Shown here in pieces: positions 17,639-63,379 of a stretch of 64,000 bases of DNA. The notes below the pieces were generated by a model. It saw nothing but the letters and a program-made list of their open reading frames with translations, was not told the DNA's origin and made no database searches. Position 1 is the stretch's first letter; each line of letters opens with the position of its first letter. The position numbers and the translations under genes were made by a program. The stretch comes from Crossiella cryophila (GTDB taxonomy: Bacteria; Actinomycetota; Actinomycetes; Mycobacteriales; Pseudonocardiaceae): contig NZ_JACHMH010000001.1 of NCBI RefSeq assembly GCF_014204915.1, positions 2,108,001 through 2,172,000 on the forward strand, in the 5' to 3' direction.

Positions 17639-17787
17639 GCCCTGAAGCGTATGACAGCCCGTGACGCCCCGCGCTCCACCCCTGACCCGATGGTGGAGGC
17701 CGAGCTGGGGCGTTGTGCCTGGATGATCACTGATATGCGGCGCAAGTCACGTCCGTGAGCTGCCAGATCGCCCCGAAAGAGCGATCC

Positions 17788-17949
17788 AGGGCCTGTGTGC
17801 GGAGCCGCGCACGCGATAGCCGCGCCGAGGCGGCCCCTGGCGGCACGGCCGGACCACCCGAATACGCCCGGTATGAGGGCGGCCCGGCCGCGCCACCAGG
17901 AACCACCTCGATCACGACTCTCACGCACGAGGCTCCGCACACAGGCCCT
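17788..17949 (-). repeat. Long quasi-palindrome element, copy 1
   Basis: A 162-bp inverted repeat with arms 17788-17865 and 17871-17949 around a five-base loop. The outermost 19 bp (AGGGCCTGTGTGCGGAGCC) are perfectly complementary. Inside, nearly all mismatches are transitions that become G-U pairs if the minus strand is transcribed. A second copy, in opposite orientation, lies at 37919-38082. The outer arms differ between the copies but each keeps its own pairing, with six compensated positions. It fills most of the gap between the lipid kinase and a membrane protein whose ATG is 12 bases away; apart from this element I see nothing coding in 17639-17960. No target-site duplication was found. 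Confidence 0.85.
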
Positions 17950-17960
17950 AGCCTGTCTGC

Positions 17961-18380
17961 ATGTCGCAAGCCCTGGGTGCGCCGCGTGCGGTGCGTGTGG
18001 CGGGTCTCCTGGTCGGGTTGCAGGGCCTGGCGGGGGTGGTGCTGGTGCTCGCCCTGCTGGTGCGCGCACTCGACGGCGCGCCCAAACCGGGCAACGTCTT
18101 CGGTGAGGCCGCCTACTTCGCGGTGCTGACCGCCGGGGTGCTCGCGGCCGCGATCGGGCTGCTGCGCGGCAAGCGCTGGGCGCGCTCGCCCGCGGTGGTG
18201 GTGGAGATCCTGTTGCTGGGCGTGGCCTGGTACACCCTCGGGCCGTCCGGGCGCTGGCTGATCGGCTCGCTGGCCGCGATCTACTGCGCGGCCGTGCTGG
18301 TGCTGCTGTTCAGCACGCACGCGCGGGCCTGGGTGCTGGGCATCGGGCCGTACGACGACTCGGAGCGGCAGCCCGGCTGA
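17961..18380 (+). CDS. Small integral membrane protein
   Basis: A 139-residue protein with about four hydrophobic helices (near residues 12-34, 50-66, 75-92 and 97-116) and a polar tail GPYDDSERQPG. No family motif is recognised. The ATG follows the palindrome element by only 11 bases and has no clear ribosome-binding site, so any transcript would have a strongly folded leader. Its last 100 bases overlap the converging EamA transporter gene. Confidence 0.6.
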   Translation: MSQALGAPRAVRVAGLLVGLQGLAGVVLVLALLVRALDGAPKPGNVFGEAAYFAVLTAGVLAAAIGLLRGKRWARSPAVVVEILLLGVAWYTLGPSGRWLIGSLAAIYCAAVLVLLFSTHARAWVLGIGPYDDSERQPG

Positions 18381-19258
18381 TCCGGCACTGGCTTGCGCGC
18401 CCTTGGCCTGACCACGCCCGAGGCCAGCGCCACCCCGATGATGACCAGCACCGCGGCGACCAGTCGCAGCGTGGTCAGCTCCTCGTTCAGCAGCAGCGCG
18501 GCCGAGGACATGCCGAACACCGGCACCAGCAACGAGAACGGCGCGACCGCGGTGGCCGGGTAGCTGCGCAGCAGGAAACCCCAGATGCCGAAGCCGGCCA
18601 GGGTCGCCGCCCAGCCCACGTAGAGCACCGCGCCGATCCCGGCCAGGTCCAGGTGCGCCAACGCGGTCAGCCCGGTGTCCACGCCCTCGAAGGTGGCCGA
18701 GAGCGCGAGCAGCGGCAGGATCGGCACCGCGCTGACCCAGACCATGAAGCGCAGCATGTCCGGCGGGGCCGCGTAGCGGGTGATGATGTTGGTCAGGCTC
18801 CACACCGCGGCCGCGCCGACCACCATCAGCAGCGCGCCCAGCGGGCTGCCCGCGCCGTAGTCGAGGATCACCAGCACCATGCCTGCCAGCGCGACCCCGG
18901 TCCCGGCCAGGCGCAGCGGGGTGGGCCGCTCCTTGAGCAGCAGCGCGGCGAAGAACACGGTGAACAGCACCTGGCTCTGCAGCACCAGCGAGGACAGTCC
19001 GGCCGGTGCGCCCGCGTACATGCCGCCGAAGAGCAGCCCGAACTTCACCACGCCCAGGGTCAGGCCCATCAGCAGCACCCAGCGCCAGGCCACCCGGGGC
19101 GAGCCGACGAAGAACAGCGCGGGCAGCGCGGCCACGGTGAAGCGCAGCGCGGAGAACAGGAACGGTGGCACCTCGGCCAGACCGACCTGGATGACCACGA
19201 AGTTGAGTCCCCAGATCAGCGCGACCAGGACGGCGAGGGCGACGTGTGCGGGCTTCAC
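18281..19258 (-). CDS. EamA/DMT superfamily transporter
   Basis: A drug/metabolite transporter with about ten transmembrane helices arranged as two EamA repeats (about residues 5-130 and 145-275). The N-terminus KPAHVALAVLVALIWGLNFV is typical of the family. I start at GTG 19258; an upstream GTG at 19291 is in frame but has no ribosome-binding site. The C-terminus runs about 40 residues past the last helix and is encoded antisense to the end of the 139-residue membrane protein. The divergent LysR gene probably controls it. The substrate is unknown. Confidence 0.82.
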   Translation of the reverse strand: MKPAHVALAVLVALIWGLNFVVIQVGLAEVPPFLFSALRFTVAALPALFFVGSPRVAWRWVLLMGLTLGVVKFGLLFGGMYAGAPAGLSSLVLQSQVLFTVFFAALLLKERPTPLRLAGTGVALAGMVLVILDYGAGSPLGALLMVVGAAAVWSLTNIITRYAAPPDMLRFMVWVSAVPILPLLALSATFEGVDTGLTALAHLDLAGIGAVLYVGWAATLAGFGIWGFLLRSYPATAVAPFSLLVPVFGMSSAALLLNEELTTLRLVAAVLVIIGVALASGVVRPRARKPVPDQPGCRSESSYGPMPSTQARACVLNSSTSTAAQ

Positions 19259-19330
19259 CAGCTCAGCCTGACCCGGCGGAGAGTTAAGCACCAGCGAAAC
19301 TATCTACCCGGATCTGTTTAGTATTGCTTC

Positions 19331-20254
19331 ATGCTCGATATCGGCAGACTGCGCGCGCTGCACGCCGTGGCAGTGCACGGCTCGGTCAACGCGGCCGCCG
19401 CCGCACTCGGCTACACCCCCTCCGCGGTGTCCCAGCAGCTGGCCAAACTGGAACGCGAGACCGGCACCACGCTGCTGGAACGCCGGGGCCGCGGCATCGC
19501 GCTCACCGACGCGGCCGCCGAGCTGGCAGGCACCGCCAAGGAGATCCTGGCCCTGGTCGAACAGGCCGAGGTGCGGCTGGAGGAACAGCGCGGCCAGCCG
19601 GTCGGGCGGCTCACCCTTGGCACCTTCGCCACCGCCGCCCGCGGCCTGCTGCCGGGGCCGCTGGCCGAACTGGCCCGCGAGTACCCGGAGCTGGACCTGC
19701 GGCTGACCGAACTGGACCCGCACCTGTCGCTGGACCTGGTCGCCAGGGGCGAGCTGGACCTGGCCGTGGTGCACGACTGGGAGAACACCCCGCTGCCCGT
19801 GCCCGAAGGGCTGGCCAGGGCCGACATCGGCGTGGACGTGGCCGATGTGCTGCTGCACGAGAGCCATCCGCTGGCCGCGCGGGCCGAACTGAGCCCGCTG
19901 GAACTCACCGGCGCGCGCTGGATCTGCCAGCCGCCCGGCTCGATCTGCCACGACTGGCTGATCCGCACCCTGCGCGGCGGCGGGGTGGAACCGGTGCTCG
20001 CGCACCAGGTCACCGAGTACCAGTCCCAGCTCGCGCTGGCCGCCAAGGGCCTTGGCGTGTGCCTGCTGCCCAGGCTCGGCCGCGGTCCGGTGCCCGCGCA
20101 CGTGGTGGTCCGGCCGCTGGTCCCGACGCCGACCAGGCGGTTGTTCGCGGTGTGGCGGCAGCAGGCCACCCGGAGGCCGGCGATCTCGGTGACGGTGGCC
20201 GCGCTGCGTGCGCACTGGGCCGATCGGGACACCGCTCCTGCTCCGATGGGTTGA
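19331..20254 (+). CDS. LysR family transcriptional regulator
   Basis: A 307-residue LysR regulator. The N-terminal winged helix-turn-helix (LRALHAVAVHGSVNAAAAAL, SAVSQQLAKLERETG) is followed by a periplasmic-binding-protein-like effector domain (about 90-295). It is transcribed divergently from the EamA transporter, with the shared intergenic region under 75 bp. This arrangement usually means the regulator controls itself and the exporter. It may also read into the following gene, 32 bases downstream. The effector is unknown. Confidence 0.9.
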   Translation: MLDIGRLRALHAVAVHGSVNAAAAALGYTPSAVSQQLAKLERETGTTLLERRGRGIALTDAAAELAGTAKEILALVEQAEVRLEEQRGQPVGRLTLGTFATAARGLLPGPLAELAREYPELDLRLTELDPHLSLDLVARGELDLAVVHDWENTPLPVPEGLARADIGVDVADVLLHESHPLAARAELSPLELTGARWICQPPGSICHDWLIRTLRGGGVEPVLAHQVTEYQSQLALAAKGLGVCLLPRLGRGPVPAHVVVRPLVPTPTRRLFAVWRQQATRRPAISVTVAALRAHWADRDTAPAPMG

Positions 20255-20286
20255 TCACTCAAAGAAGGGACTGGGAGCGCCCGCGC

Positions 20287-21018
20287 GTGTCGTGCTCCAA
20301 TCGATGTGTGACGCCTGACGGTCAGATCCCGCGACCGCGTACGTCCGTTGGCCGGGGCGGCCACGCGCTGCTCGCCCTCGGCCTCTTCGATCACGCCGAG
20401 GAGGATCTGCTCGGCTACGCGGGCTGGGCCGCTGGCAACTTCACCGCCGTGCAGGTGGTGCTGGTCGACCTGCCCGCGGCACACACCTACCGGGCGGTCG
20501 GCTACAAGACCCACCGCGCCCTGCACAAGGCCCGCAGCGAGGGCAAACGCCTGCAGGCCAGGGCCCGGCGCGCACTGGCCGTGCTCGGCCTGCCCGGTTC
20601 GCTGGTGGTGCCCTGGGCCGAGGTGGCCGCCCGCTACCGCTACCAGGTGCTCTTCGACCAGGTCCGGCACGCCTACGACAGCAGCCTGGTCTTCCGCGCG
20701 GCCTGCCTGCGGGCCACCGCGACCATGCTCGCCGACCGGGTGCCGGGCGCGCTGTGCTCCCGCGGCCAGGTGCAGATCGCCGTGCACTCCCTGCTGGCCG
20801 AACTGCCACTGGCCCTGGACGGCGCCGGGATCCTGGGCGTGCCCGAGTCCACCCGCTGCCAGCCCCGCCCGCTGGAACTCACCGAACTGCTCGCCGCCGC
20901 CCCACCCGAGTTGTGCCCACGGCCAGGCCAGCTCGCCCTGACCCTGCGCTCGGCGCCGGCTCAGCGGCCGAACACGGTGTCCGGATCGCAGTTGACCGAG
21001 ATCTCGCAGTCGCAGTAA
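20287..21018 (+). CDS. Cyclodipeptide-synthase-like protein lacking catalytic residues
   Basis: A 243-residue protein that aligns over its length with tRNA-dependent cyclodipeptide synthases such as AlbC, which form diketopiperazines from two aminoacyl-tRNAs. Shared features are HALL at the first strand, a basic helix (KTHRALHKARSEGKRL, RARRAL), LLAELP and ILGVPEST. By my manual alignment AlbC Ser37 is replaced by Gly, Tyr178 by Ser and Tyr202 by Gln, while Glu182 is kept. It is therefore probably not a normal synthase. GGGAG sits nine bases before GTG 20287. No cyclodipeptide oxidase or P450 gene is nearby. The 3' end overlaps the converging DUF2695 gene by 58 bases. Confidence 0.65.
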   Translation: MSCSNRCVTPDGQIPRPRTSVGRGGHALLALGLFDHAEEDLLGYAGWAAGNFTAVQVVLVDLPAAHTYRAVGYKTHRALHKARSEGKRLQARARRALAVLGLPGSLVVPWAEVAARYRYQVLFDQVRHAYDSSLVFRAACLRATATMLADRVPGALCSRGQVQIAVHSLLAELPLALDGAGILGVPESTRCQPRPLELTELLAAAPPELCPRPGQLALTLRSAPAQRPNTVSGSQLTEISQSQ

Positions 21019-21257
21019 CCACCCAGCTCGGCCAGCCCCTCGTCCAGGTCGGCCCAGTCCCGCCCGTGCGCGGCGGCCCAGACCTCGGCGAACCGGGTGC
21101 TGTGGTCGCAGCCGTGCAGTTCGACCGCGGCCTCCAGATCCGCCACGAGGTCGGCCAGCTCCTGCTCGGTGAGCGGGCACAGCGCGATCCGCCTGTCCCG
21201 CTCGGCGGCCTTGTGGGCCTCGCGCAACTGCTTCCGCCGCGCCTTGTCCTGGCTCAT
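20961..21257 (-). CDS. DUF2695 domain protein
   Basis: A 98-residue protein with the DUF2695 pattern: CPLTEQELADL, GCDHSTRFAEVW and GGYCDCEISVNCDPDTV. Conserved Cys and His residues suggest metal binding (inference). The N-terminal third is basic and helical (DKARRKQLREAHKAAERDRR). The start at 21257 is the only ATG giving this standard length. It converges on, and overlaps, the cyclodipeptide-synthase-like gene. Confidence 0.82.
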   Translation of the reverse strand: MSQDKARRKQLREAHKAAERDRRIALCPLTEQELADLVADLEAAVELHGCDHSTRFAEVWAAAHGRDWADLDEGLAELGGYCDCEISVNCDPDTVFGR

Positions 21258-21344
21258 GCGCCCAGTTTCACCCGTGGCGAAACCGGCCGCGGGCCCGGTC
21301 TTCCCCGGCGAGCATGACGACGTTCCCACCGAAGGAGTCCCGCC

Positions 21345-21866
21345 GTGGCCATGGTCCGAGAAGTCGCCGACGAACGGGACGCGCTGCTGGCGTTCCTGGC
21401 CGAACAGCGCGCCGCCCTGCGCCGCAGCGTGCTCAACCTGACCGAGCAGACCGCCACCAGCCGCCCGCTGGTCAGCGAGCTGACCCTGGCCGGGCTGGTC
21501 AAACACGTGGCCGGCGTGGAACGCAACTGGCTGGACATCGTGCGTGGCGTGCACATCGGCGACCGCGGCCCGGTGCACGCGCTCGGCCCCGGCGAGACCG
21601 TGGCCCAGGCCCTGGCCGAACTCGCCGAGGTCGCCGCCCGCACCGAGGACCAGGTGCGCGAGCTGGACCTGGACCAGCCGGTGGACGTCGGCCTGCAGGG
21701 CCACCCATTGGTCGCCGGCAAGGTGCGCACCGTGCGCTGGGTGCTGCTGCACCTGATCACCGAGCTGGCCAGGCACGCCGGTCACGCCGACCTGCTGCGC
21801 GAGTCCCTGGACGGCGCCACCGCGTTCCAGCTGGTGGCCGCCGCCGGGGACCCGCTGATCACCTGA
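21345..21866 (+). CDS. DinB family protein (DUF664)
   Basis: A 173-residue four-helix-bundle protein of the DinB/YfiT metal-dependent superfamily, whose actinobacterial members often use mycothiol or bind nickel or zinc. Candidate metal-binding histidines lie in LVKHVAGVERNW and in HLITELARHAGHADLLRE. GAAGGAGT lies six bases before GTG 21345, so I use that start rather than ATG 21351. The enzymatic role is not evident. Confidence 0.82.
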   Translation: MAMVREVADERDALLAFLAEQRAALRRSVLNLTEQTATSRPLVSELTLAGLVKHVAGVERNWLDIVRGVHIGDRGPVHALGPGETVAQALAELAEVAARTEDQVRELDLDQPVDVGLQGHPLVAGKVRTVRWVLLHLITELARHAGHADLLRESLDGATAFQLVAAAGDPLIT

Positions 21867-21867
21867 G

Positions 21868-22353
21868 TCAGGCCTGCTTGCCCAGCTCCGCCAGTGCGGC
21901 CCCGTCCACCCGGTAGACCGTCCACTCGTCCATGGCCACCGCGCCGAGGGACTTGTAGAAGTCGATGGCCGGTGTGTTCCAGTCCAGCACCGACCACTCG
22001 AACCGGGCGTAGCCGCGGCGCACGCACTCCTGGGCCAGCGCCACCAGCAACGCCTTGCCCAGCCCCGAACCCCGGTGCTCGGGCAGTACGAACAGGTCCT
22101 CCAGGTAGATGCCGTGCCTGCCCTCCCAGGTGGAGAAGTTCAGGAACCACAGGGCACAACCGACCACCACGCCGTCCAGTTCGGCGACGTGCCCGAACAG
22201 CGCCGGGCTGTCGCCGAACAGGGCGGTGCGCAGCTGGTCGGCGGTGATGGTGCAGGACTCCGGCGCGCGCTCGTACTCCGCGAGCCCCTCGATCAGTCCG
22301 ATCACGGCGTCCACATCGGACGGCCGGACCCGGCGAATGCGCTCGTCGGTCAC
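21868..22353 (-). CDS. GNAT family N-acetyltransferase
   Basis: A 161-residue GNAT acetyltransferase resembling spermidine/diamine acetyltransferases: it has EGLAEYERAPESC near the N-terminus and ALWFLNFSTWEGRHGIYLED before the acetyl-CoA loop VLPEHRGSGLGKALL, then WSVLDWNTPAIDFYKSLGA. GAGGA precedes GTG 22353. It lies 17 bases downstream of the histidine phosphatase gene on the same strand, so they are probably one transcript. The substrate is tentative. Confidence 0.87.
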   Translation of the reverse strand: MTDERIRRVRPSDVDAVIGLIEGLAEYERAPESCTITADQLRTALFGDSPALFGHVAELDGVVVGCALWFLNFSTWEGRHGIYLEDLFVLPEHRGSGLGKALLVALAQECVRRGYARFEWSVLDWNTPAIDFYKSLGAVAMDEWTVYRVDGAALAELGKQA

Positions 22354-22370
22354 GGTTTTCCTCCCCAGTG

Positions 22371-22967
22371 CTAGGCGGTCGGCAGGTTGAGCCGCACGAG
22401 TTGCGGCACACCCCGCTCGAATCCCAGCACAGCGATCCCCGCCGTGCCCAACCCGAACCGCACCCCGGCCGTCGCGGGCAGCTCCAGCCACCGCGCCACC
22501 AGCACCCGGCTGAAGTGCCCGTGCCCGACCAGCACCACGTCGGTCTCCGGCAACAACGCCCGCACCCGGTCCAGCAACCGGTCGGCGCGGGCGGTGACCT
22601 GTTCGGCGGATTCGCCGCCGGGGATCGGGTGCGTCCAGACGGTCCAGTCCGGCACGGACTCGCGGATCCGCGGTGTGGTCAGGCCCTCGTAGTCGCCGTA
22701 GTCCCACTCGGCCAGGTCCTCGGTGACCTCGTCGACGGTGAGCCCGGCCAGCTCGGCGGTCACCCTGGCGCGGTCGCGCGGGCTGGCCAGGACCCGGCCC
22801 TTGACGCCGAGCGCGGCCAGGGTACGGCCGGCGGCCTCGGCCTGGGCGCGGCCTTGCGGGGTGAGCGGGATGTCGGTGCGGCCGGTGTGCTGACCGGAGC
22901 GGGACCACTCGGTCTCACCGTGCCGCAGCAGGTAGACGGTGGGCTCCCGGTGCTCGTCGTGGGTCAC
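22371..22967 (-). CDS. Histidine phosphatase family protein
   Basis: A 198-residue member of the phosphoglycerate-mutase-like superfamily. The catalytic LLRHGETEW motif is at the N-terminus, SPRDRARVTAEL gives the substrate Arg, and VGHGHFSRVL supplies the second catalytic His. It probably hydrolyses a small phosphate ester rather than acting in glycolysis, judging by its short length. GTG 22967 is the closest start to the RHG motif consistent with the family. The likely partner is the GNAT gene downstream. Confidence 0.85.
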   Translation of the reverse strand: MTHDEHREPTVYLLRHGETEWSRSGQHTGRTDIPLTPQGRAQAEAAGRTLAALGVKGRVLASPRDRARVTAELAGLTVDEVTEDLAEWDYGDYEGLTTPRIRESVPDWTVWTHPIPGGESAEQVTARADRLLDRVRALLPETDVVLVGHGHFSRVLVARWLELPATAGVRFGLGTAGIAVLGFERGVPQLVRLNLPTA

Positions 22968-23003
22968 GCCGCCGATTCTGCGCCGAGTTGCCCAGGACAG
23001 CGA

Positions 23004-23038
23004 GACGCCCCAGCCACCACCCGGGTGACTGGGGCGTC
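23004..23038 (-). terminator. Hairpin terminator of sodN
   Basis: GACGCCCCAG (23004-23013) pairs perfectly with CTGGGGCGTC (23029-23038). It starts 12 bases past the sodN stop in the transcribed direction. Confidence 0.7.
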
Positions 23039-23050
23039 CCACCACACGAA

Positions 23051-23461
23051 TCAGGCCGCCTTCTTGGTCTCCCAGAAGATGGTGGAGATCTGTTCGATGT
23101 AGTCCAGCAGTTCAGCGCCGGTCTTGGGGTCGGTGGACCCCTTGGCGCCACCGGCGCCCGCGGCCTTGGTGGCCCGGTTGAACAGTTCGTGCAGTTCCGG
23201 GTACTTCTCGAAGTGCGGTGGCTTGAAGTAGTCCGTCCACAGCACCCACAGGTGGTGCTTGACGAGTTCGCAGCGCTGTTCCTTGATCTCGATCGCGCGC
23301 TGGCGGAACTCCGGGTCCTCGTTGGACTGGAACTTCTCCTGGATCGCCTTGACCGACTCGGCCTCGATCCGCGCCTGGGCTGGGTCGTACACGCCGCACG
23401 GGAGGTCGCAGTGCGCGGTGACCTCCAGACGCGGGGCGAGGATGCGCGACAACAGTCGCAT
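23051..23461 (-). CDS. sodN: Nickel superoxide dismutase precursor
   Basis: Ni-SOD converting superoxide to oxygen and peroxide in the cytoplasm. The nickel hook HCDLPCGVYDP follows a 16-residue leader (MRLLSRILAPRLEVTA) that must be removed to free His1, which with Cys2 and Cys6 binds nickel. The remaining four-helix body is of normal length. AGGAGG is five bases before the ATG at 23461, which I prefer over the adjacent ATG at 23464. The maturation protease gene sodX is divergent and adjacent. Confidence 0.95.
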   Translation of the reverse strand: MRLLSRILAPRLEVTAHCDLPCGVYDPAQARIEAESVKAIQEKFQSNEDPEFRQRAIEIKEQRCELVKHHLWVLWTDYFKPPHFEKYPELHELFNRATKAAGAGGAKGSTDPKTGAELLDYIEQISTIFWETKKAA

Positions 23462-23533
23462 CATGTCCTCCTGAACAATGGATGCTCCGACGCGGGTGAC
23501 CCTACTCCGGGCGTACCGGACCGGCAGGCGGAG

Positions 23534-23863
23534 GTGATCGTCCTGGGGCTCGGGCTTCTGCCGGTGCGCAGGTTGCTGGTGCGCGGGCCGTCCATGGCTC
23601 CGGCGCTGGCCGACGGGGATGTCGTGCTGGTCCGGCGGGGTGTCCGGCCGCGGGCCGGGGATGTGGTGCTGGTGCGCTGGGCGGCGCGGCCGGGGCAGTT
23701 GTCCGTCAAGCGGGCGGTGCGGCCGGTCGCCGGCGGCTGGTGGGTGTTGGGGGACAACACCTTCGGCTCCACCGACTCCGCCGCACTCGGCGCGGCCGAG
23801 GTGCTCGGGGTGGTGCGCTGGCGGCTGTGGCCGCGGCCGGGACGGGTGCGGCGGCGGGGCTGA
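23534..23863 (+). CDS. sodX: Nickel superoxide dismutase maturation protease SodX
   Basis: S26 signal-peptidase-like protease that trims the SodN leader. The catalytic Ser lies in GPSMAPALADGD and the Lys in SVKRAVRP; GDNTFGSTDS is the typical third box. From GTG 23534 the protein has 109 residues, shorter at the N-terminus than many homologues; upstream in-frame codons offer no ATG or GTG after the sodN start. The 72-base gap to sodN must contain the promoters of both genes, but I see no clear Nur box there. Confidence 0.88.
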   Translation: MIVLGLGLLPVRRLLVRGPSMAPALADGDVVLVRRGVRPRAGDVVLVRWAARPGQLSVKRAVRPVAGGWWVLGDNTFGSTDSAALGAAEVLGVVRWRLWPRPGRVRRRG

Positions 23864-23917
23864 GGCAGGCCCGCCAGGTCGTGGCGACGGTGGCCGACCT
23901 GGCGGGGGTGGGGAGCG

Positions 23918-24532
23918 TCAGGCGTTGGCGCGCAGGCTGGCGTAGTGGTCAACGCAGGTCTGGTACTTGGGCAGCAGACCGGCTGCCTCGGCCTCGGCCA
24001 GGCTGGGCGCGTCGGTGTCCTTGGCCGAGAGCACCGGCGCGGCGCCGTCCAGGTACTCCGCCCATGGCAGGCCCAGTGCCGGGTCCAGCGGGTTGATCGC
24101 GTGCTCGCGCGCGGGGGTGAACGGGGTCGAGCACAGGTAGTTCATCACCGTGTCGTCCTCCAGGGCGAGGAAGCAGTGCCCGAGACCCTCGCTGATGTAG
24201 ATCGAGTTGTAGGTCTCCGAGGACAGCCGCACCGCCTCCCACTTGCCGAAGGTCGGCGAGCCCAGCCGGATGTCGATGACGATGTCGATCAGGGCGCCGC
24301 GGGCGCAGTAGATGTACTTGGCCTGTCCCGGCGGGGTGTCGGCGAAGTGCACACCGCGGATGACCCCGCGGCGGGACACCGAGTGGTTGCTCTGGGCCAG
24401 CGGCAGCGGGTATCCGACGGTCTCGGCGACCAGGTCGGCCTGGAACGGAACCACCAGAAGTCCGCGGTCGTCCGGAAAACTTTTCGGAGTGAATTCGTAC
24501 GCATCGGGGATCGTCATTTTCCGCACCTGCAT
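23918..24532 (-). CDS. dTDP-4-dehydro-6-deoxyhexose 3,5-epimerase family protein
   Basis: A 204-residue RmlC-family cupin epimerase of nucleotide-activated deoxysugars. The signature VIRGVHFADTPPGQAKYIYCARGALIDIVIDIR with its catalytic His is present, followed by EGLGHCFLALEDDTVMNYL. It stands alone here, with no other rml gene in the window, so it may serve a glycosylated natural product or a remote rhamnose locus. The start is uncertain: ATG 24532 is used, but ATG 24517 is also possible, and neither has a strong ribosome-binding site. Confidence 0.85.
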   Translation of the reverse strand: MQVRKMTIPDAYEFTPKSFPDDRGLLVVPFQADLVAETVGYPLPLAQSNHSVSRRGVIRGVHFADTPPGQAKYIYCARGALIDIVIDIRLGSPTFGKWEAVRLSSETYNSIYISEGLGHCFLALEDDTVMNYLCSTPFTPAREHAINPLDPALGLPWAEYLDGAAPVLSAKDTDAPSLAEAEAAGLLPKYQTCVDHYASLRANA

Positions 24533-24853
24533 GGTGCTTGAGCTTACGGCGCGAGTCCCGCGACCTGCGGAGGACCGCCTGTGGCGGAAACAAGCCGGAC
24601 GGACGTCTTGCAAAACACGTCCTGACCTGCGCCGGAAGGAAAAAGGTAACTGTGATCCCCGCCGCAGACACGATCAGGAAGTGGTGCCACACTGTCGACA
24701 CCGCAGCGTGTGTTGATCACCGGACTCCACCCCGTAGTCCAGTGGTCGACCCGTTGATCCCGCGAAACGCCAGGGTGCGACAGCGTCCGGCGGACCGCGT
24801 CACGTGCCTATTCGGGCACGCCCACAACTCTCGCCCCCTCCAGGAGGGACGCT
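24533..24853. other. Non-coding region before malic enzyme
   Basis: Divergent intergenic region of 321 bases. It holds GGACGT (24601-24606) with its perfect complement ACGTCC (24617-24622), and a small hairpin CGTGCC-loop-GGCACG (24803-24820) in the malic enzyme leader. No gene, known riboswitch or tRNA is recognised. Confidence 0.5.
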
Positions 24854-26035: not shown

Positions 26036-26099
26036 AAGGGTCGGGGCACAAGGTTCACCGGGTTACCGAGCGTTCCGGCTACTCAGCGCTATCACTGAC

Positions 26100-26202
26100 C
26101 GAGTGAAGGCAGTTCTCCCAGCTCTTGGCGTTTGTCAAGTTGCCGCTGAATTGCCAACTCTGGGGGGTGGGCCAACCGGGTCCCACCTACTACCTTCACT
26201 CG
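26100..26202. repeat. Inverted repeat upstream of the GGDEF-EAL gene
   Basis: CGAGTGAAGG (26100-26109) is repeated as its exact complement CCTTCACTCG (26193-26202), 83 bases apart, in the 281-base gap between malic enzyme and the GGDEF-EAL gene. The intervening sequence does not fit the c-di-GMP riboswitch consensus I know. Its role is unknown. Confidence 0.35.
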
Positions 26203-26316
26203 TTCAGGTAGGCATCCGGGTGGGGGTTGGCGTGGCCACCCCGACTCGGGTGCACTGCTGAGACAGCCGCCGGCCGGGCCACCCTGCGCCGCGGCGGTCG
26301 ATGCGGAAGGGTGGAC

Positions 26317-30344: not shown

Positions 30345-30396
30345 GTCCCGAAGCTAGCCCCGGAACCCGCGCCGCCGGGTGATCGACTGGGTGTTG

Positions 30397-31950
30397 TCAG
30401 CGATCGGTAAGAACTTCCGCGCCCAGTGCGGTGAGCAGCTCGGCGAGCTGGTGCCGGGGCAGGTCGATCAGGCGGGCGCTGAGGTCGAGGTGCGGCACCA
30501 GCCCGGTGATCCGGGCGCGGGCCTCGTTCTTGGTCAGGCCGGTCCTGGTGAGCGCCTCGCGCCAGATGTTGCCGGGCTTGCCGTGCGCGCGATCCAGCAG
30601 CGCGCGCTGGATCCGTTGTGGCTCAGTGGTTTCGCTGATCCGGTCGGCGACGATCACCGCGGACTTCGGGTCCGGGTTGCTGCGCAGGAAGCGGAGTTTG
30701 TATTTACTGGCAACGAGATCGGCCAGGCCGCGCTGGCCGCGTTCGCTGGTGATGTCCGGGTGGTTGTTGTCCACCAGCAGCAGCACCCGGTCGGCGGAGA
30801 TGGCCAGCAGGTGCCGCAGTGCCCACGGGCCGGGGTCGGCGGTGGTGTCCAGCACGACCGCGCCGCGGGCGGTCACCGGGGCGGCCCAACCCGGTTGGCG
30901 GAGCACGACTTCCAGGCCGTCCCTGGCGGCGAGTTCGCGTACCGGGCCGGTGCGGTCGGTGGCGGTGGACTCGATCGACTGTGGGCCGTGGGTGTAGATC
31001 CCGGTGCCGGCAACGGTTTTCTTCGCCTTGGCGGTCGGGCGGCAGACGTAGAGCGAACTCGCGCTGCCCACCGCCTGCGCGCCGACATACCGGTCGAAGT
31101 CGGGCAGCAGCGCCTCCAGGACCAGGCCGAGCCGGAGCAGTTCCTGCTGCACCTTCCAGCCAAGGGCCGGGCTGCGCTCGCTGAAGCCGTAGGCCAGGTG
31201 GATCCGTCCGGTGGCCGGATCACGCAACGATTCCACCGCGCGGGTGGCGAACAGGCCCATGCCCTCGGGGGTGTAGGGCGGGTCGGTGAAGACCAGGTCG
31301 GCCCAGCCGATGGCCGGGGGCGGGAAGCCGAAGCGCAGGTCGGCGTGCAGGCAGCGGATCCGGTGGCCGCGCTCGCGGGCGGTGGCGTCGATGTGCGCGA
31401 GCAGGCGTTCGTCCAGGTCGACCACGGTGATCTCGAGGTCGGGGCGCACCGCGGCCAGCGCCAGCGAGGTCAGGTCGTGATCACCCAGGCACAGCACCCT
31501 GGCGCCGGCCAGGTCGTAGGTGCGCTCCAGCCACAGCGCGCGGCGCAGCACCGACTCCGCGGTGGCAGGCACGTGGTCCAGCGCGGGCAGCGGCGGCGGA
31601 TTGCCCGCGATGTCGGTTCGGATGGTGGACAGCGTGGCTGTGTGCTGGCTCACAGCCTCGGCCAGTGGATCCGCCGGTGCGGGGATTTCGTCCAGCTCGA
31701 AGGCGGTGCGGTAGGCCGCGGCCCTGGCGGGGTGGATGCGGTGCCGATCGCCCTGGCTCTCCAGGTCCGGCCCGAGCAGTGCCAGCAGCTCCTCCACCGA
31801 GCGGCGCGGGGCGGCTGGCCTGCGGATCAACTCGGCCAGCGGCTGCCAGCCGCCGGCCAGCAGGGCGAGTACGCGGCGTAGCCGGCGGGCGGCCGGACCG
31901 GCCGCGGACAGGTGGGCAGCGAGCGGGTCCAGCGGCGCTTCGACGGTCAC
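30397..31950 (-). CDS. Branched polyamine synthase-like aminopropyltransferase
   Basis: A 517-residue protein like bis-aminopropyl (branched) spermidine synthase (BpsA), which adds aminopropyl groups from decarboxylated S-adenosylmethionine to spermidine. The Rossmann core shows GDHDLTSLAL, VVDLDERLLAHID and the catalytic FTDPPYTPEGM. An N-terminal winged-helix-like region and a C-terminal extension of about 200 residues flank it. I start at GTG 31950; a longer frame to 32055 would consume the promoter region shared with the divergent ABC operon. TACAGT about nine bases upstream suggests a leaderless transcript (inference). Confidence 0.75.
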   Translation of the reverse strand: MTVEAPLDPLAAHLSAAGPAARRLRRVLALLAGGWQPLAELIRRPAAPRRSVEELLALLGPDLESQGDRHRIHPARAAAYRTAFELDEIPAPADPLAEAVSQHTATLSTIRTDIAGNPPPLPALDHVPATAESVLRRALWLERTYDLAGARVLCLGDHDLTSLALAAVRPDLEITVVDLDERLLAHIDATARERGHRIRCLHADLRFGFPPPAIGWADLVFTDPPYTPEGMGLFATRAVESLRDPATGRIHLAYGFSERSPALGWKVQQELLRLGLVLEALLPDFDRYVGAQAVGSASSLYVCRPTAKAKKTVAGTGIYTHGPQSIESTATDRTGPVRELAARDGLEVVLRQPGWAAPVTARGAVVLDTTADPGPWALRHLLAISADRVLLLVDNNHPDITSERGQRGLADLVASKYKLRFLRSNPDPKSAVIVADRISETTEPQRIQRALLDRAHGKPGNIWREALTRTGLTKNEARARITGLVPHLDLSARLIDLPRHQLAELLTALGAEVLTDR

Positions 31951-32073
31951 AAAACGTTTACTGTAAAGGGCTGGCCACTGGGTGTTGACCTCGCCGTTGT
32001 CAGTCCATCGGACTAAGGTCGATTGCTCAGGCGGCGGCCGGCCAGTGGCCGTCACGACCTTAAGGGGGCTCGC

Positions 32074-33168
32074 GTGATCGAGTTCCAGGCCGTGACCAAA
32101 CGCTTCGATGACGGCACCGTCGCCGTCGACGAGCTGACCCTTTCCGTACAGGCGGGCACGATCACCGTGTTCGTCGGGCCGTCCGGCTGCGGGAAGACCA
32201 CCTCACTGCGGATGGTCAACCGGATGGTGGAACCCACCGGTGGCACCATCCTGGTGAACGGGAAGGACATCAGGGACTCCGACCCGGCGCTGCTGCGCCG
32301 CGGCATCGGCTACGTGATCCAGCAGGCCGGACTGTTCCCGCACCGCAGCGTGCTGGACAACATCGCCACCGTGCCGCTGCTGTCGGGCTGGACCCGGCGC
32401 AAGGCGCGCGCCCGCGCGGCCGAGCTGCTGGAGACGGTCGGGCTGCCGGTGGAACTGGGCAAGCGGTACCCGGCCCAGCTCTCCGGCGGGCAGCAGCAGC
32501 GGGTGGGGGTGGCCCGTGCGCTGGCCGCCGATCCGCCGGTGCTGCTCATGGACGAGCCGTTCAGCGCGGTGGATCCCGTTGTGCGCGAAGGACTTCAGGA
32601 CGAACTGCTGCGGTTGCAGGCCGAACTGGACAAGACCATCGTCTTCGTCACCCACGATATCGACGAGGCGGTCCGGATCGGCGAGAAGATCGCGGTGTTC
32701 CGGCAGGGCGGCGTGCTCGCCCAGTACGCCACCCCGGCGGAGCTGCTGACCAGGCCCGCCAACGATTTCGTGGCCAACTTCGTCGGCAAGGACCGCGGCT
32801 ACCGCGGACTGTCCTTTGTGGAGGACGGCGAGCTGGACGTGCGCTCGGTGGACACCGTGCAGGTCGGTGCGCGACGGCAGGCCGGCACCGGTTGGACACT
32901 GGCCCTGGACGCGGACAACCACCCGCGTGGCTGGCTGCCGCCGGAGTCCATCGCGGACGGCCAGGTGGCGGAAAGCTCGCTGGTGCCCGGTGGTTCGCTG
33001 CACGTGCGTGGCACCGCGCTGCGCGGCGCGCTGGACGCGGCGCTGTCCTCCCCGGCCGGGCTCGGCGTGGTGGTGGACGAGGGCGGCGGGTACACCGGCG
33101 TGGTCACCGCGCAGCAGGTGCTCGACCTGCTGGAGCACCGCCGCGAGCAGGAGACGGGCAGGGTCTGA
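32074..33168 (+). CDS. Glycine betaine/choline ABC transporter ATP-binding protein
   Basis: ATPase of an OpuC/ProU-type compatible-solute importer. Walker A GPSGCGKTTSLRM, the Q-loop, the signature LSGGQQQRVGVARALA, Walker B LLMDEPFSAVDP and the switch His in VTHDIDEA are complete. After the ATPase (about 1-240) a C-terminal regulatory part ends in a CBS-like stretch (VVDEGGGYTGVVTAQQVLDLL) that in OpuA-type systems senses ionic strength. AAGGGGG is five bases before GTG 32074. It is the first gene of a tightly spaced four-gene operon. Confidence 0.92.
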   Translation: MIEFQAVTKRFDDGTVAVDELTLSVQAGTITVFVGPSGCGKTTSLRMVNRMVEPTGGTILVNGKDIRDSDPALLRRGIGYVIQQAGLFPHRSVLDNIATVPLLSGWTRRKARARAAELLETVGLPVELGKRYPAQLSGGQQQRVGVARALAADPPVLLMDEPFSAVDPVVREGLQDELLRLQAELDKTIVFVTHDIDEAVRIGEKIAVFRQGGVLAQYATPAELLTRPANDFVANFVGKDRGYRGLSFVEDGELDVRSVDTVQVGARRQAGTGWTLALDADNHPRGWLPPESIADGQVAESSLVPGGSLHVRGTALRGALDAALSSPAGLGVVVDEGGGYTGVVTAQQVLDLLEHRREQETGRV

Positions 33169-33170
33169 GG

Positions 33171-33842
33171 GTGTTCGACGACCTCGCCAAGTACCTCGGC
33201 AACCCGCGCAACGTCGGCGCGGTGCTCGACGGGCTGCTCCAGCACGTCTACCTGTCGCTGGCGCCGGTGCTGATCGGGTTGCTGCTGGCCATCCCGCTTG
33301 GCTGGCTGGCCCAGCGCACCCGCTGGCTGCGCACGGTCTTCCTGGGCACCGCCAACATCGTCTACACCATCCCGTCGCTGGCGTTGTTCGTGGTGATCCC
33401 CGGCCTGCTGGGCACCCGGATCACCGATCCGCTCAACGTGGTGGTGGCGCTGACGGTCTACACCACCGCGCTGCTGGTGCGCCCGGTGATCGACGCGCTG
33501 GACTCGCTGCCCAGCCCGGTGCTGGCCGCGGCCACCGCGATCGGGTTCAAGCCCGCGCACCGGTTCTTCGTGGTCGACCTGCCGCTGTCGGTCCCGGTGC
33601 TCACCGCCGGGGTGCGGGTGGCCGCGGTGAGCAACATCAGCCTGGTCAGCGTGGGCGCGCTGATCGGCACCGGCGGGCTGGGCGTGCTGTTCACCTCCGG
33701 CTTCGGCATCCAGTACCTGCCGCCGATCATCGTCGGCATCGTGCTGACCCTGCTGCTGGCCGCGCTGGTGGACCTGACCCTGGTCGCGCTGCGCCGCCTG
33801 CTCACCCCGTGGACCCGCCTCGGCACCGGAGGCGCGCCGTGA
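33171..33842 (+). CDS. Glycine betaine/choline ABC transporter permease 1
   Basis: A 223-residue inner-membrane permease with about six helices and the EAA-type loop AAATAIGFKPAHRFFVVDLPLSVPVLTAG. It follows the ATPase gene by two bases and overlaps the second permease by four (GTGA), so translation is coupled. Two separate permeases plus a lipoprotein match OpuB/OpuC architecture. Confidence 0.9.
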   Translation: MFDDLAKYLGNPRNVGAVLDGLLQHVYLSLAPVLIGLLLAIPLGWLAQRTRWLRTVFLGTANIVYTIPSLALFVVIPGLLGTRITDPLNVVVALTVYTTALLVRPVIDALDSLPSPVLAAATAIGFKPAHRFFVVDLPLSVPVLTAGVRVAAVSNISLVSVGALIGTGGLGVLFTSGFGIQYLPPIIVGIVLTLLLAALVDLTLVALRRLLTPWTRLGTGGAP

Positions 33843-34621
33843 TCCAGCAACTCTTCGCCTGGCTGGCCGATCCGGCGCACTGGCAGGGCACCGACGGCCT
33901 GCCCACCCGGCTGGCCGAGCACCTCTACTACACGCTGATCGCGGTCTTCGGGGCCGCGGCCATCGGCATCCCGCTCGGGCTGTTCGTCGGGCACACCGGA
34001 CGCGGCGGGCTGGTGCTGGTCGGCGCGTCCAACGCGATGCGCGCGCTGCCCACCCTTGGCCTGGTCACCTTCCTGTTCCTGCTCGGCGGCGGCTCCCAGG
34101 TCTCCACCCTGATCGCGCTGATCGTGCTCGCGGTGCCGCCGATCCTGGCCGGCACCTACGCGGGTGTGCAGGACACCGACGCCGGGGTGGTCGACGCCGC
34201 CCGCGGCATGGGCATGACCGGCTGGCAACGACTGTGGCAGGTCGAGGTGCCCAACGCGCTGCCGCTGCTGCTCGGCGGCCTGCGCAACGCCATGCTCCAG
34301 GTGGTGGCCACCGCCGCGGTGGCGGCCTACGTGGGCCTCGGCGGGCTGGGCCGGGTGCTGCTGGACGGCATGCGGATCTATGACTACCCCAAGGTGGTGG
34401 CGGGCGCGTTCGCGGTGGCGCTGCTCGCGGTGACGCTGGACCTGCTGCTCGCGGGTCTGCAGCGGATCGTGGTGCCGCGTGGGCTGCGGGTGGCCGCGCG
34501 CGCGGCGGCACTGGCCCGCGGGGCCACCCGGGTGCGGGTGAAACCCAACGGGCACAACAACTTGACCAAGATCGAGACCCGGACCACGGAGTCCGGTGTC
34601 GCTGGAGGGACAAAGTCATGA
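33839..34621 (+). CDS. Glycine betaine/choline ABC transporter permease 2
   Basis: A 260-residue permease with about six helices and the loop DAARGMGMTGWQRLWQVEVP. The C-terminal 40 residues are hydrophilic and basic (RGLRVAARAAALARG), longer than usual. GTG 33839 overlaps permease 1 and the stop overlaps the binding-protein ATG, continuing the coupled operon. It pairs with permease 1 to form the membrane channel. Confidence 0.9.
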   Translation: MIQQLFAWLADPAHWQGTDGLPTRLAEHLYYTLIAVFGAAAIGIPLGLFVGHTGRGGLVLVGASNAMRALPTLGLVTFLFLLGGGSQVSTLIALIVLAVPPILAGTYAGVQDTDAGVVDAARGMGMTGWQRLWQVEVPNALPLLLGGLRNAMLQVVATAAVAAYVGLGGLGRVLLDGMRIYDYPKVVAGAFAVALLAVTLDLLLAGLQRIVVPRGLRVAARAAALARGATRVRVKPNGHNNLTKIETRTTESGVAGGTKS

Positions 34622-35508
34622 AGCGGAATCTGGCGGCCGTGGCCGTGCTGGTCGTGGCCGCGGTGAGCGCCTGCGGGGCGCCCGCGGACCCGCTCAAGAA
34701 CGGCGCGCCGGTCACCGACAAGACCATCCACGTCGGCTCGGTGGACTTCCCGGAGAACAAGCTGCTGGCCGAGATCTACGCCGCGGTGCTCGACGACGCC
34801 GGGGCCGAGGTCAAGGTGCAGAGCCCGGTCTCCGCGCGCGAGGTGATGCTCAAGGGCCTCAAGGACGGCTCGTTCACCCTGGTGCCGGACTACAGCGGAA
34901 ACCTGTTGCAGGCACTGGATTCCAGCAACACCGCGACCAAGTCCGAGGACATCTTCGCCGCGCTCAAGACCAAGGTCGGCCCGGACCTGGAGGTCCTGGA
35001 GCCCGCGCCGGGTGAGGACAAGGACGTGCTGGTGGTGACCCAGCAGGTGGCCCAGCAGTTCGGGCTGAAGTCCCTGGCCGACCTGGGGCCGAAGTGCTCG
35101 CAGCTCACCCTGGCCGCGGCCGGTGAGTGGAAGACCCGCTGGGAAGCCAAGATCAAGCAGCTCTACGGCTGCACCTTCAAGGAGATCCGCTCCACCGACG
35201 CCGGTGGCCCGGTCACCCTGGACGCGATCAAGTCCGGCACCGCGCAGGTGGCCAACCTGTTCACCACCGCATCGGCGATCGGCACCAACAACTTCGTGCA
35301 GCTGGCCGACCCGAAGAACATGTACCCGGCGCAGAACATCATCCCGCTGTTCAAGTCCGGCAAGCTGACCGACGCCGCCAAGCTGGCGCTCAACCAGATC
35401 TCCAAGAAGATCACCACCGAGAAGCTGGCCGCCGCGGTCAAGCGGATCGAGGTCGACAAGGAGAACCCGGTGGACGTGGCCGCGGACTTCGTCAAGCAGA
35501 ACGCCTGA
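34618..35508 (+). CDS. Glycine betaine/choline substrate-binding lipoprotein
   Basis: A 296-residue OpuAC/OpuCC-type binding protein. The signal peptide ends in lipobox VSAC, anchoring it to the membrane surface. The mature domain begins with TIHVGSVDFPENKLLAEIYA and carries LVPDYSGNLLQAL and DAGGPVTLDAIKSG, typical of quaternary-amine-binding proteins with an aromatic cage. It is the last gene of the operon; its stop is four bases from the converging IclR gene's stop. Whether choline or betaine is preferred is not visible. Confidence 0.9.
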   Translation: MKRNLAAVAVLVVAAVSACGAPADPLKNGAPVTDKTIHVGSVDFPENKLLAEIYAAVLDDAGAEVKVQSPVSAREVMLKGLKDGSFTLVPDYSGNLLQALDSSNTATKSEDIFAALKTKVGPDLEVLEPAPGEDKDVLVVTQQVAQQFGLKSLADLGPKCSQLTLAAAGEWKTRWEAKIKQLYGCTFKEIRSTDAGGPVTLDAIKSGTAQVANLFTTASAIGTNNFVQLADPKNMYPAQNIIPLFKSGKLTDAAKLALNQISKKITTEKLAAAVKRIEVDKENPVDVAADFVKQNA

Positions 35509-35512
35509 TCCC

Positions 35513-36304
35513 TCAGCTCCCGGCGCGGCCGGGCTGACCGCCGATCCTGGCCGTCAGCCCGGCCGCGCTTTGCACTGCCTCGGCGGCGAGTTCGGGCCAG
35601 TCCTGGCCGCATTCCTGCTCGCACTCGTGCCGGACGGTCAGACTGATCGCGGCCACCGGCCGCCCGCTGTGGTCGAAGACCGGCACCGCGACCGAGGCGA
35701 AGCCGGGGGTGACGTGGCCGTCCTCCACCGACCAGCCGCGCTGCCGTTCGGCGGTGAGCAGCCTGCGCAGCGCCGGCAGGTCGCGCGGGCCGCGGCCGGT
35801 GCGGTCCACGAACGCCCGCGCGGACGGGAACAGCGCCCGCACCTGGGCGGCGGGCAGGCCGCTGAGGATGGCCCGGCCGGAGGCGGTGAGCTGGGCCGGC
35901 AGCCGCACGCCGATGTCGGTGACCAGGGTCTGCGGCCGGTGCGGTTGCTCCTTGAGCAGGTAGAGGGCTTCCGCGCCGTGCAGCACGCCCAGGTGCGCGG
36001 TGGTCTCCACTCGGTCCACCAGGCGGCGCAGCAGCGGCCGGGCCAGCCGCTCCAGCGGGTCGTGGCGCAGGTAGGCCGAGCCAAGCTCGAAGGTGGCCAC
36101 GCCGAGGCCGTAGCGGCGTTCCTCGGTCAGATGGGTGACGAATCCGGCCGCCACCAGCTCGGTGAGCAGGTGGTACGTGGTCGAGCGGGGCAGCTCCAGC
36201 TCACGCGCGATGGCGGCCGCGGAGATCGGGCCCGCCCGCTTGGCCAGCAGCCGCAGCACGGCCAGCCCACGCCGTAGCGCGGGGACGTCGCTGCTCTCGC
36301 CCAC
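35513..36304 (-). CDS. IclR family regulator, probable hut operon regulator
   Basis: A 263-residue IclR regulator: N-terminal winged helix (GLAVLRLLAKRAGPISAAAIARELELPRSTTYHLL) and C-terminal effector-binding domain from about residue 85, with the Cys-containing end HECEQECGQDWPELAAE. It is transcribed from GTG 36304, divergently from hutH, and two palindromes lie in the shared 89-base gap. This context makes it the likely regulator of histidine utilisation, responding to histidine or urocanate (inference). Repressor or activator function cannot be told from sequence. Confidence 0.88.
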   Translation of the reverse strand: MGESSDVPALRRGLAVLRLLAKRAGPISAAAIARELELPRSTTYHLLTELVAAGFVTHLTEERRYGLGVATFELGSAYLRHDPLERLARPLLRRLVDRVETTAHLGVLHGAEALYLLKEQPHRPQTLVTDIGVRLPAQLTASGRAILSGLPAAQVRALFPSARAFVDRTGRGPRDLPALRRLLTAERQRGWSVEDGHVTPGFASVAVPVFDHSGRPVAAISLTVRHECEQECGQDWPELAAEAVQSAAGLTARIGGQPGRAGS

Positions 36305-36323
36305 TCGGCCCGCTCCTCAACAC

Positions 36324-36339
36324 GTCTGGGATCCCAGAC
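36324..36339. promoter_or_regulatory. Perfect 16-bp palindrome, probable IclR operator
   Basis: GTCTGGGATCCCAGAC is a perfect palindrome 20 bases upstream of the iclR-family start codon and 55 bases upstream of hutH. IclR regulators bind such inverted repeats in divergent promoters. Confidence 0.65.
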
Positions 36340-36362
36340 AGTGTCACCCCAACCGGCATGGC

Positions 36363-36377
36363 GTGCCAGCCTGGCAC
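36363..36377. promoter_or_regulatory. Second palindrome close to the hutH start
   Basis: GTGCCAG-C-CTGGCAC is a perfect odd palindrome, 17 bases before the hutH ATG. It could be a second operator or a block to translation initiation. Its half-site (CCAG) resembles that of the 36324 palindrome. Confidence 0.5.
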
Positions 36378-36393
36378 AGGTTCTGATGGGCAC

Positions 36394-37932
36394 ATGCAGC
36401 AACCGGTACCCGTCGGCTTGAAGCCGCTCTCCCGCGAGCAGGTCGTCGCGGTGGCCCGCGGCGGCGCGTCCGTGGAGATCACCACGGAGGCCCAGGAGGC
36501 CATGGCGGCCACCAGGGCGCACATCGAGGCACTGGCCGAGGCGACCACGCCCACCTACGGCGTGTCCACCGGCTTCGGCGCGCTCGCCGTCCGGCACATC
36601 CCGCCGGAGAAACGCGCCCAGCTGCAGCGTTCGCTGGTCCGCTCGCACGCCGCAGGCGCCGGGCCGGAGGTCGAGGCCGAGGTGGTCCGCGCGCTGATGC
36701 TGCTCCGGCTGCGCACGCTGACCAGCGGGCACACCGGCATCCGGCCGCGCACCGCGGCCACCATGGCCGCGCTGCTCAACGCCGGACTGGTGCCGGTGGT
36801 GCACGAGTACGGCTCGCTCGGCTGCTCCGGCGACCTCGCGCCGCTGTCCGCGGTGGCGCTGGCGCTGATGGGGGAGGGGCAGGTCCGGGACGAGTCCGGG
36901 CTGCTGCGCCCCACCGCCGAGGCCATGCGCGAACACCGGATCGAACCGGTGCAGCTGGCCGAGAAGGAGGGCCTGGCGCTGATCAACGGCACCGACGGCA
37001 TGCTCGGCATGCTGGTCATGGCCGCCGCCGACCTGCACCGGCTGCTCGACCTGGCCGATCTCACCGCGGCGATGAGCGTGGAGGCGCTGCTGGGCACCGA
37101 CCGGCCCTTCGCCCCCGAACTCCAGGCCCTGCGCCCGCACCCGGGCCAGGCCCGCTCGGCCGCCCGGATGTTCGCCGCGCTGGCCGGCTCGCCGATCGTG
37201 GCCAGCCACCGCGGCCCGGACTGCACCAGGGTGCAGGACGCCTACTCGCTGCGCTGCTCCCCGCAGGTGCACGGCGCGGCCAGGGACACCCTGGCCTACG
37301 TGGAGACCGTGGCCGACCGGGAACTGGCCGCCGCGGTGGACAACCCGGTGGTGCTGGCCGACGGCCGGGTGGAGTCCAACGGCAACTTCCACGGCGCGCC
37401 GGTGGCCTACGCGCTGGACTTCCTGGCCATCCCGATCGCCGATGTGGCCAGCATCGCCGAACGCCGCACCGACCGGATGCTGGACGTGTCCCGCTCGCAC
37501 GGCCTGCCGCCGTTCCTGGCCCACGACCCCGGCGTGGACTCCGGCCACATGATCGCCCAGTACACCCAGGCCGCCCTGGTCTCCGAGCTGAAGCGGCTGG
37601 CCAACCCGGCCTCGGTCGACTCCATCCCCAGCTCGGCCATGCAGGAGGACCACGTCTCCATGGGCTGGTCCGCCGCGCGCAAGCTGCGCAAGGCGGTGGA
37701 CGGGCTGACCACCGTGCTGGCCATCGAACTGCTCACCGCGGCCCGCGCGCTGGACCTGCGCGCCCCGCTCGAACCGGCCCCGGCCACCGCCGCCGCGCTG
37801 CGCGTGCTCCGCGAGCACGTCGCCGGTCCGGGCCCCGACCGCCACCTGGCCCCGGAGATCGCCGCCGCCGAACGCGTGGTGCGTTCCGGCGAGCTGCACG
37901 CCGCGGTCGAACCGCACCTTGGGTCTGCATGA
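36394..37932 (+). CDS. hutH: Histidine ammonia-lyase
   Basis: First enzyme of histidine degradation, releasing ammonia to give urocanate. The 512-residue protein has the MIO prosthetic-group triad as Cys144-Ser145-Gly146 in GCSGDLAPLS, the HAL form with Cys instead of Ala. YGVSTGFG near the N-terminus and NPVVLADGRVESNGNFHG are further family signatures. ATG 36394 is closest to the conserved start. The last five codons and the stop lie inside the 37919-38082 palindrome, so the mRNA 3' end of hutH can fold into that hairpin. Confidence 0.95.
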   Translation: MQQPVPVGLKPLSREQVVAVARGGASVEITTEAQEAMAATRAHIEALAEATTPTYGVSTGFGALAVRHIPPEKRAQLQRSLVRSHAAGAGPEVEAEVVRALMLLRLRTLTSGHTGIRPRTAATMAALLNAGLVPVVHEYGSLGCSGDLAPLSAVALALMGEGQVRDESGLLRPTAEAMREHRIEPVQLAEKEGLALINGTDGMLGMLVMAAADLHRLLDLADLTAAMSVEALLGTDRPFAPELQALRPHPGQARSAARMFAALAGSPIVASHRGPDCTRVQDAYSLRCSPQVHGAARDTLAYVETVADRELAAAVDNPVVLADGRVESNGNFHGAPVAYALDFLAIPIADVASIAERRTDRMLDVSRSHGLPPFLAHDPGVDSGHMIAQYTQAALVSELKRLANPASVDSIPSSAMQEDHVSMGWSAARKLRKAVDGLTTVLAIELLTAARALDLRAPLEPAPATAAALRVLREHVAGPGPDRHLAPEIAAAERVVRSGELHAAVEPHLGSA

Positions 37933-38082
37933 GGAATCGTGTGCGTGAGAGTCGTGATCGAGGTGGTTCCTGGCGGTGCGGCCGGACCGTCCTCATACCG
38001 GACGTATTCGGATGGTCCGGCCGTGCCGCTAGGGGCCGCCTCGGCGCGGCTATTGCGTGCGCGATTCCTTATGCAGACCCAA
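37919..38082 (+). repeat. Long quasi-palindrome element, copy 2, inside the hut operon
   Basis: A 164-bp inverted repeat: left arm 37919-37998, loop CGGAC 37999-38003, right arm 38004-38082. The outer arm TTGGGTCTGCATGAGGAATC pairs with the far end with one G-U. Along the arms, almost all non-Watson-Crick positions are G-U pairs when read from the plus strand, the direction of the hut mRNA. Relative to copy 1 (17788-17949, opposite strand), six outer-arm positions have changed on both sides, preserving pairing. The inner roughly 120 bases are nearly identical between copies. It lies between hutH and hutU and ends 22 bases before the hutU start. Confidence 0.85.
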
Positions 38083-63362: not shown

Positions 63363-63379
63363 GCCGGGTGGGGTGGGGG

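Follow-up and report, generated by a model that had tools for sequence, protein, structure and literature searches.

A 64,000-nucleotide stretch of the Crossiella cryophila genome (contig NZ_JACHMH010000001.1, positions 2,108,001 to 2,172,000; hereafter the window) carries two copies of a long hairpin that is very probably a non-autonomous miniature inverted-repeat transposable element (MITE) of ~160 bp, with a 2-bp TA duplication, IS5-like ends and an inner stem that is pairable on one strand only. Comparison with related genomes indicates that the hairpin family has moved and that it targets TA, usually inside CTAG and often in the TAG stop codon of a gene. The outer ~20 bp resemble, at the sequence level, the terminal repeats of insertion sequences (IS) of the IS5 family (IS427-like), which together with the mobility places the element among the MITEs. 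It is short, multicopy and dispersed, bears terminal inverted repeats and a TA duplication, and its ends match those of an autonomous element; an interior derived from the autonomous element, which is usual but not universal in MITEs, was not found when the core was compared with three IS elements. Strand-specific folding of the inner stem appears to be under selection.

The first-pass annotation of the window had placed the hairpins at 17788-17949 (minus strand) and 37919-38082 (plus strand), each with a five-base loop. Both sequence and folding agree with this, the range for the first copy taking in one flanking base on each side of the unit. Each copy forms one long hairpin, with RNA folding energies of -155.5 (copy 1) and -143.3 kcal/mol (copy 2) and z-scores of -16.3 and -18.0, respectively, and none of 200 shuffles of either copy folded as well. 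When aligned without gaps from the GGG, the copies are identical at 137/160 positions overall and at 97/104 in the core, as expected from the near-identity of the inner part that had been described. Differences between the left arms fall at positions 4, 8, 9, 12, 16, 17, 19 and 20, and at 4, 8, 9, 12, 16 and 17 the right arm is altered to match, reproducing the six paired changes reported earlier. Within the first 30 positions there are five internal mismatches in copy 1 and seven in copy 2. Read on the sense strand, all 12 are of the G-T type, apart from the T/G of copy 1 at position 19 and the G/T of both copies at position 29.

The two hairpins had been taken for a two-copy family, which is rejected by the 16 copies in the C. 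cryophila genome itself. Nine strong copies were found there by DNA search, and a covariance model based on 56 copies located 16 distinct places (E <= 0.01). Matches occur in all five genomes of the genus and, by DNA search (E <= 1e-5), in 115 of the 390 genomes of the family, distributed over 14 of 46 genera. The seven exact-pattern matches that carry a name are four Crossiella and three Actinokineospora stretches. In a sample of the class, 19/296 genomes (C. cryophila included) matched the covariance model. A second model, for which 21 of the 26 other-family copies (L104-L129) were aligned, matched 35 of 396 genomes sampled across the phylum, again including C. cryophila; the weakest of these matches, near E 1e-4, may be unrelated palindromes. 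The core motif CAAGG / AACGC was recognized in seven of eight distant loci inspected (L309-L311 and L313-L316), the eighth (L312) showing a variant motif and a poor fold. Using blastn, one copy from another family (Streptomyces-type) matched 62 plasmid records, of which 58 are from Streptomyces and only 13 have one place covering 80% of the query, and it gave no match in phages; for the window copy, blastn was negative against both plasmids and phages. Rfam yielded no match in the window at the gathering score and only two weak matches over eight related loci, both outside the hairpins. Neither Rfam nor the literature searched, mainly freely accessible papers, provided a name for the element, in agreement with the first-pass annotation, which knew of no named actinomycete element of this form. 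Two Actinokineospora spheciospongiae contigs (L026 and L031) end within the core hairpin, so that assemblies are probably interrupted by the element and draft genomes understate its copy number. In genome G571, the copies L171-L174 measure 223-344 bp and have an expansion of G+C-rich repeats within one arm or both, and two adjacent hairpin matches lie on opposite strands at L108:1337-1667.

The joined flanks of the 16 C. cryophila copies were searched for in four congeners (G001-G004). For all 16, a site without the full element was found in at least one of the four, the kind of empty site for which the first-pass annotation had proposed to look. The only such congener site for L092 holds about 15 extra bases, L094 is common to C. 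cryophila and G002, G004 has a split L102 site, and element remnants persist at some congener sites, such as that of L095 in G002. Target duplication was examined by seeking 16 copies of G003 in its close congener G004, where 11 sites were aligned. Five of these (L252, L040, L243, L062 and L255) show a clean 2-bp duplication, in which a TA at the empty site is doubled when filled, while the remaining six are eroded or ambiguous and the site of one additional copy (L259) is split. L088 likewise shows a clean TA duplication. These duplications delimit the unit as GGG...CCC or similar, flanked by TA and usually situated within CTAG. According to a simple coding score, an element end provides the stop codon of a neighbouring gene, nearly always TAG, in 62 of 125 copies: on the left for a sense gene in 37, on the right for an antisense gene in 38, and on both sides in 13. 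This even gene orientation makes selection within host mRNAs unlikely, and a fixed-orientation regulator located in gene 3′ ends was rejected on the same counts.

A transposase located near a related end in G571 is assigned to Pfam DUF4096/DDE_Tnp_1 and NCBIfam IS5. Crossiella IS elements with such transposases are 933-951 bp in length, have repeats beginning with GGGCGTGTCCTCAAAG, GAGCCTGTCCTGTAAG or GGTCGTGTCCTGCGG and are flanked by TA or CTAG; two of them, L218 and L280, each contain two overlapping open reading frames (ORFs). For other DUF4096 loci retrieved in the same search, the ends were different or none were found. The outer ~20 bp of the hairpins align in register with the IS terminal repeats, the best being the C. 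cryophila copy L089, which matches 20/21 bases of the L218 end. Agreement with the L218 ends at 15 or more of 20 positions is reached by 35 of 250 arm ends but by none of 2,500 left ends after mononucleotide shuffling. The C. cryophila genome also contains a 178-bp remnant that has a sub-threshold DUF4096 match inside it and shares 18/20 bases with L089. Taken alone, the terminal motif does not count as evidence, as TAGGSCSTGTC is not enriched in this genome over a reversed control (7 forward and 9 reverse occurrences vs 29 and 37). Comparison of the core with three IS elements gave no meaningful similarity, the best core matches among those listed having E-values of 0.18 or weaker, and a plain deletion derivative of the compared IS elements was thus rejected as the source of the hairpin.

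The outermost paired changes are to be expected, because the two ends of a transposon must be matched sites for one transposase. The six changes between the window copies, which had been read as a sign of selection on a transcribed RNA, fall in the terminal inverted repeats and therefore do not suffice as proof of it. This caution extends to palindromes in general, where matched transposase sites yield the same pattern of paired changes as a conserved RNA; a count of wobbles by strand helps to distinguish the two. The other part of that earlier suggestion, folding on one strand, receives support from the rest of the stem. In an alignment of 56 copies, 97.9% of 3,917 cells are paired, and two-sided changes occur in 519 cells, compared with a mean of 127 after shuffling and with 67-86 after sliding. 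Covariation extends beyond the matching of ends, since 27 of the 50 pairs of the inner helix have changed on both sides. The proposed covariance search thus found both further copies and covariation, the opposite of the outcome that had been named as adverse.

Wobbles were counted in 125 copies (123 distinct) in a strand-neutral way, by pairing every copy with the reverse complement of itself. The partial or cut-off copies L249, L269 and L277, opposite-strand rows and the second hairpin match of L108 (1337-1500) were left out of these counts, and L261 gave no match in the preceding model search. In total there are 1,266 wobbles on the sense strand (G-T) vs 84 on the antisense strand (seen as A-C mismatches), a strand-specific pairing consistent with a structured RNA. 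The sense:antisense ratio is 283:29 in the arms and 794:21 in the core of copies from the same taxonomic family as C. cryophila, and 37:9 and 152:25, respectively, in those of other families. Counted by copy, the arm wobbles favour the sense strand in 111, the antisense strand in two and neither in 12. By position among the 123 distinct copies, bases 11-20 give 46:7, bases 21-30 give 241:15 and the remainder, beyond base 30, 906:43, a profile suggesting that the outer 20 bp act mainly as a DNA site and the remainder as a one-strand stem. In 123/123 distinct copies, folding is better for the sense than for the antisense strand; sense orientation was assigned by the wobble-aware model, with which a sequence-only profile agrees in 47/47 loci compared. 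The one-strand pattern fits folding of single-stranded DNA as well as of RNA.

Arms and cores behave as separate modules. In the C. cryophila genome, 26 pairs of copies with a core divergence below 3% differ on average by 23% in their arms, and the diversity among nine close copies falls at about position 31 and rises again at about position 139. The reverse is seen in G003, where identical inner-arm stretches accompany cores that are 2-8% apart. Five orthologous insertion pairs differ at 1/280 arm and 18/521 core positions, indicating that the arms are not hypermutable in place. In one of these pairs (L041/L254), seven of the eight core differences are alleles found in other copies of both genomes, as predicted by gene conversion. 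The nearest neighbour lies in the same genome for 35.3/73 cores and 32.0/73 arms (after shuffling, about 21 on average and at most 34.3 and 30.0, respectively), so that concerted evolution of cores by genome is not strongly supported.

We propose that IS5-type transposases would move the element in trans by way of its outer repeats and, because the arms differ, that different copies would suit different transposases. The core would work as a folded single strand, most likely as an RNA derived from the element and less likely as single-stranded DNA in a step of its mobility. Cores may be transferred between resident copies by ectopic gene conversion ending where arm homology stops, by which arms and cores would be reshuffled; exchange of arms at transposition may be another source of the modularity. 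Several observations weigh against this interpretation. Past movement is read from sequence comparison, and both the action of the transposase and the transcript are putative. An intact matching IS was not found in the C. cryophila genome, in which DUF4096 matches are weak or fragmentary, and the ends of copy 2 match known IS ends poorly, less well than those of most copies, with 9-10/20 bases shared with the IS5 remnant in the same genome. The case for conversion of cores comes mainly from the pair L041/L254, the other three differing ortholog pairs being mixed, with several unique changes, and clustering by genome is hardly stronger for cores than for arms. Furthermore, the wobble bias is mild in bases 1-10 (29:15), and the copies are related by descent, so that the wobble counts are not independent. 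It is possible, if unlikely, that the core is itself the lineage, a selfish structured nucleic acid whose folded RNA or single-stranded DNA is obligatory for its spread and whose arms are swapped to suit the resident IS5 transposase, such that one core would lie behind many ends across the phylum.

The principal alternative is an ordinary MITE with a functionless core, in which template switching and the need for two equal ends would have matched the arms, the wobble excess being due to mutation bias or shared ancestry. Products of the template-switch type, which the first-pass annotation had itself put forward as an alternative, do exist: a 65-bp perfect palindrome with family-type ends (L177:237-301, in G649) looks like one arm copied back onto itself, and the apex of L042 is inverted. 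Matched ends would moreover account for the outer covariation, and the copies do share descent. Switching alone would, however, not confine G-T mismatches to one strand, and the two-sided changes in the inner helix, the wobble ratio sustained across many genera and the motif shared by distant loci render a functionless core improbable.

The covariation and one-strand pairing would also be explained by an immobile or host-encoded repeated structured RNA, either a small RNA or a cis-regulator; the empty sites, TA duplications and IS5-like ends argue against it, the clean insertions already contradict it and the lack of a gene-orientation bias gives it no support, making it highly implausible. 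Even less credible, judged by the terminal anatomy, is a REP-like element (repetitive extragenic palindrome) that a Y1 transposase (RAYT/IS200-type) would mobilize in single-stranded form: although such a substrate would need to fold on one strand, Y1 elements insert without target duplication, and the hairpins have symmetric terminal repeats, a TA duplication and in-register identity to the ends of DDE-type IS5 elements.

Among known systems, the ERIC and Correia elements also target TA. The accessible part of one account (PMC10969869) describes them as short, dispersed, intergenic, foldable over nearly their whole length and without a transposase of their own. The Crossiella element is likewise a whole-length palindromic MITE, but it has no Rfam match, occurs in different hosts and has a conserved core, one-strand pairing and differing arms on a shared core, the one-strand bias having been measured in the Crossiella-type family only. 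As far as the literature searched shows, the conserved one-strand core is a new feature. Terminal repeats, TA duplication and transposase family link the element to the IS427 group of the IS5 family, in which, according to the portion of a Paracoccus study available (PMC3281130), 10 of 11 elements have 2-bp repeats and there are two overlapping ORFs; the hairpin differs in having no transposase and a core dissimilar to the three IS elements. With REP and REPIN sequences it has in common that they are short dispersed palindromes, and it differs in its length, terminal repeats and TA duplication. Gene conversion was reportedly proposed for REP evolution in a 1988 review, going by its title. The CTAG-type ends of the hairpin contrast with the GTAG/CGTC tags of REP named in the title of PMC3733652. 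A general remark in the part of PMC4681348 available assigns some abundant short RNAs from Streptomyces coelicolor and from Escherichia coli to palindromes. MITEs are usually viewed as hollowed-out insertion sequences, whereas the core described here is unlike the three IS elements compared, and it is recognizable from Crossiella to Streptomyces and beyond, with signs of selection for one-strand folding. It may thus offer a testable case of a mini-transposon dependent on an RNA or single-stranded stage, with core and ends evolving as separate modules.

Table 1. Coordinates of the two hairpin copies in the window; left and right repeats are given in sense orientation.
Feature	Position	Strand	Basis or remarks
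Copy 1 transposition unit, GGGCC...GGCCC	17789..17948	-	Sequence; covariance match; limits of the unit set by clean TA duplications at other copies
Copy 1 flanking bases	17949-17950 (TA); 17787-17788 (CA)		
Copy 1 left terminal inverted repeat	17929..17948	-	Family ends match IS5-family ends in register
Copy 1 right terminal inverted repeat	17789..17808	-	In-register IS5-family end match; pairs with left repeat
Copy 1 conserved core hairpin (unit sense positions 29-132)	17817..17920	-	Identity to copy 2 (97/104); diversity-profile boundaries
Copy 2 transposition unit, GGGTC...GACCC	37921..38080	+	Sequence; covariance match; empty site in G001-G004
Copy 2 flanking bases (TT and AA)			Target bases, either eroded or variant; hutH and hutU on either side of the copy
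Copy 2 left terminal inverted repeat	37921..37940	+	Pairs with right repeat
Copy 2 right terminal inverted repeat	38061..38080	+	Pairs with left repeat
Copy 2 conserved core hairpin	37949..38052	+	Identity to copy 1 (97/104)

The hutH gene extends over 36358-37932 and hutU starts at 38105. The hutH frame terminates at a TGA within copy 2, and the end of HutH was thus rewritten by the insertion. A frame encoding TnpB, an RNA-guided endonuclease (NCBIfam: IS607-type), is located directly downstream of hutU (39805-41115). Copy 1 is neighboured by a lipid-kinase-like gene and an ORF without a family match. A further inverted repeat occurs at 63184-63367, with 53-nt arms that are 87% complementary and contain GGCCGTT/AACGGCC units.

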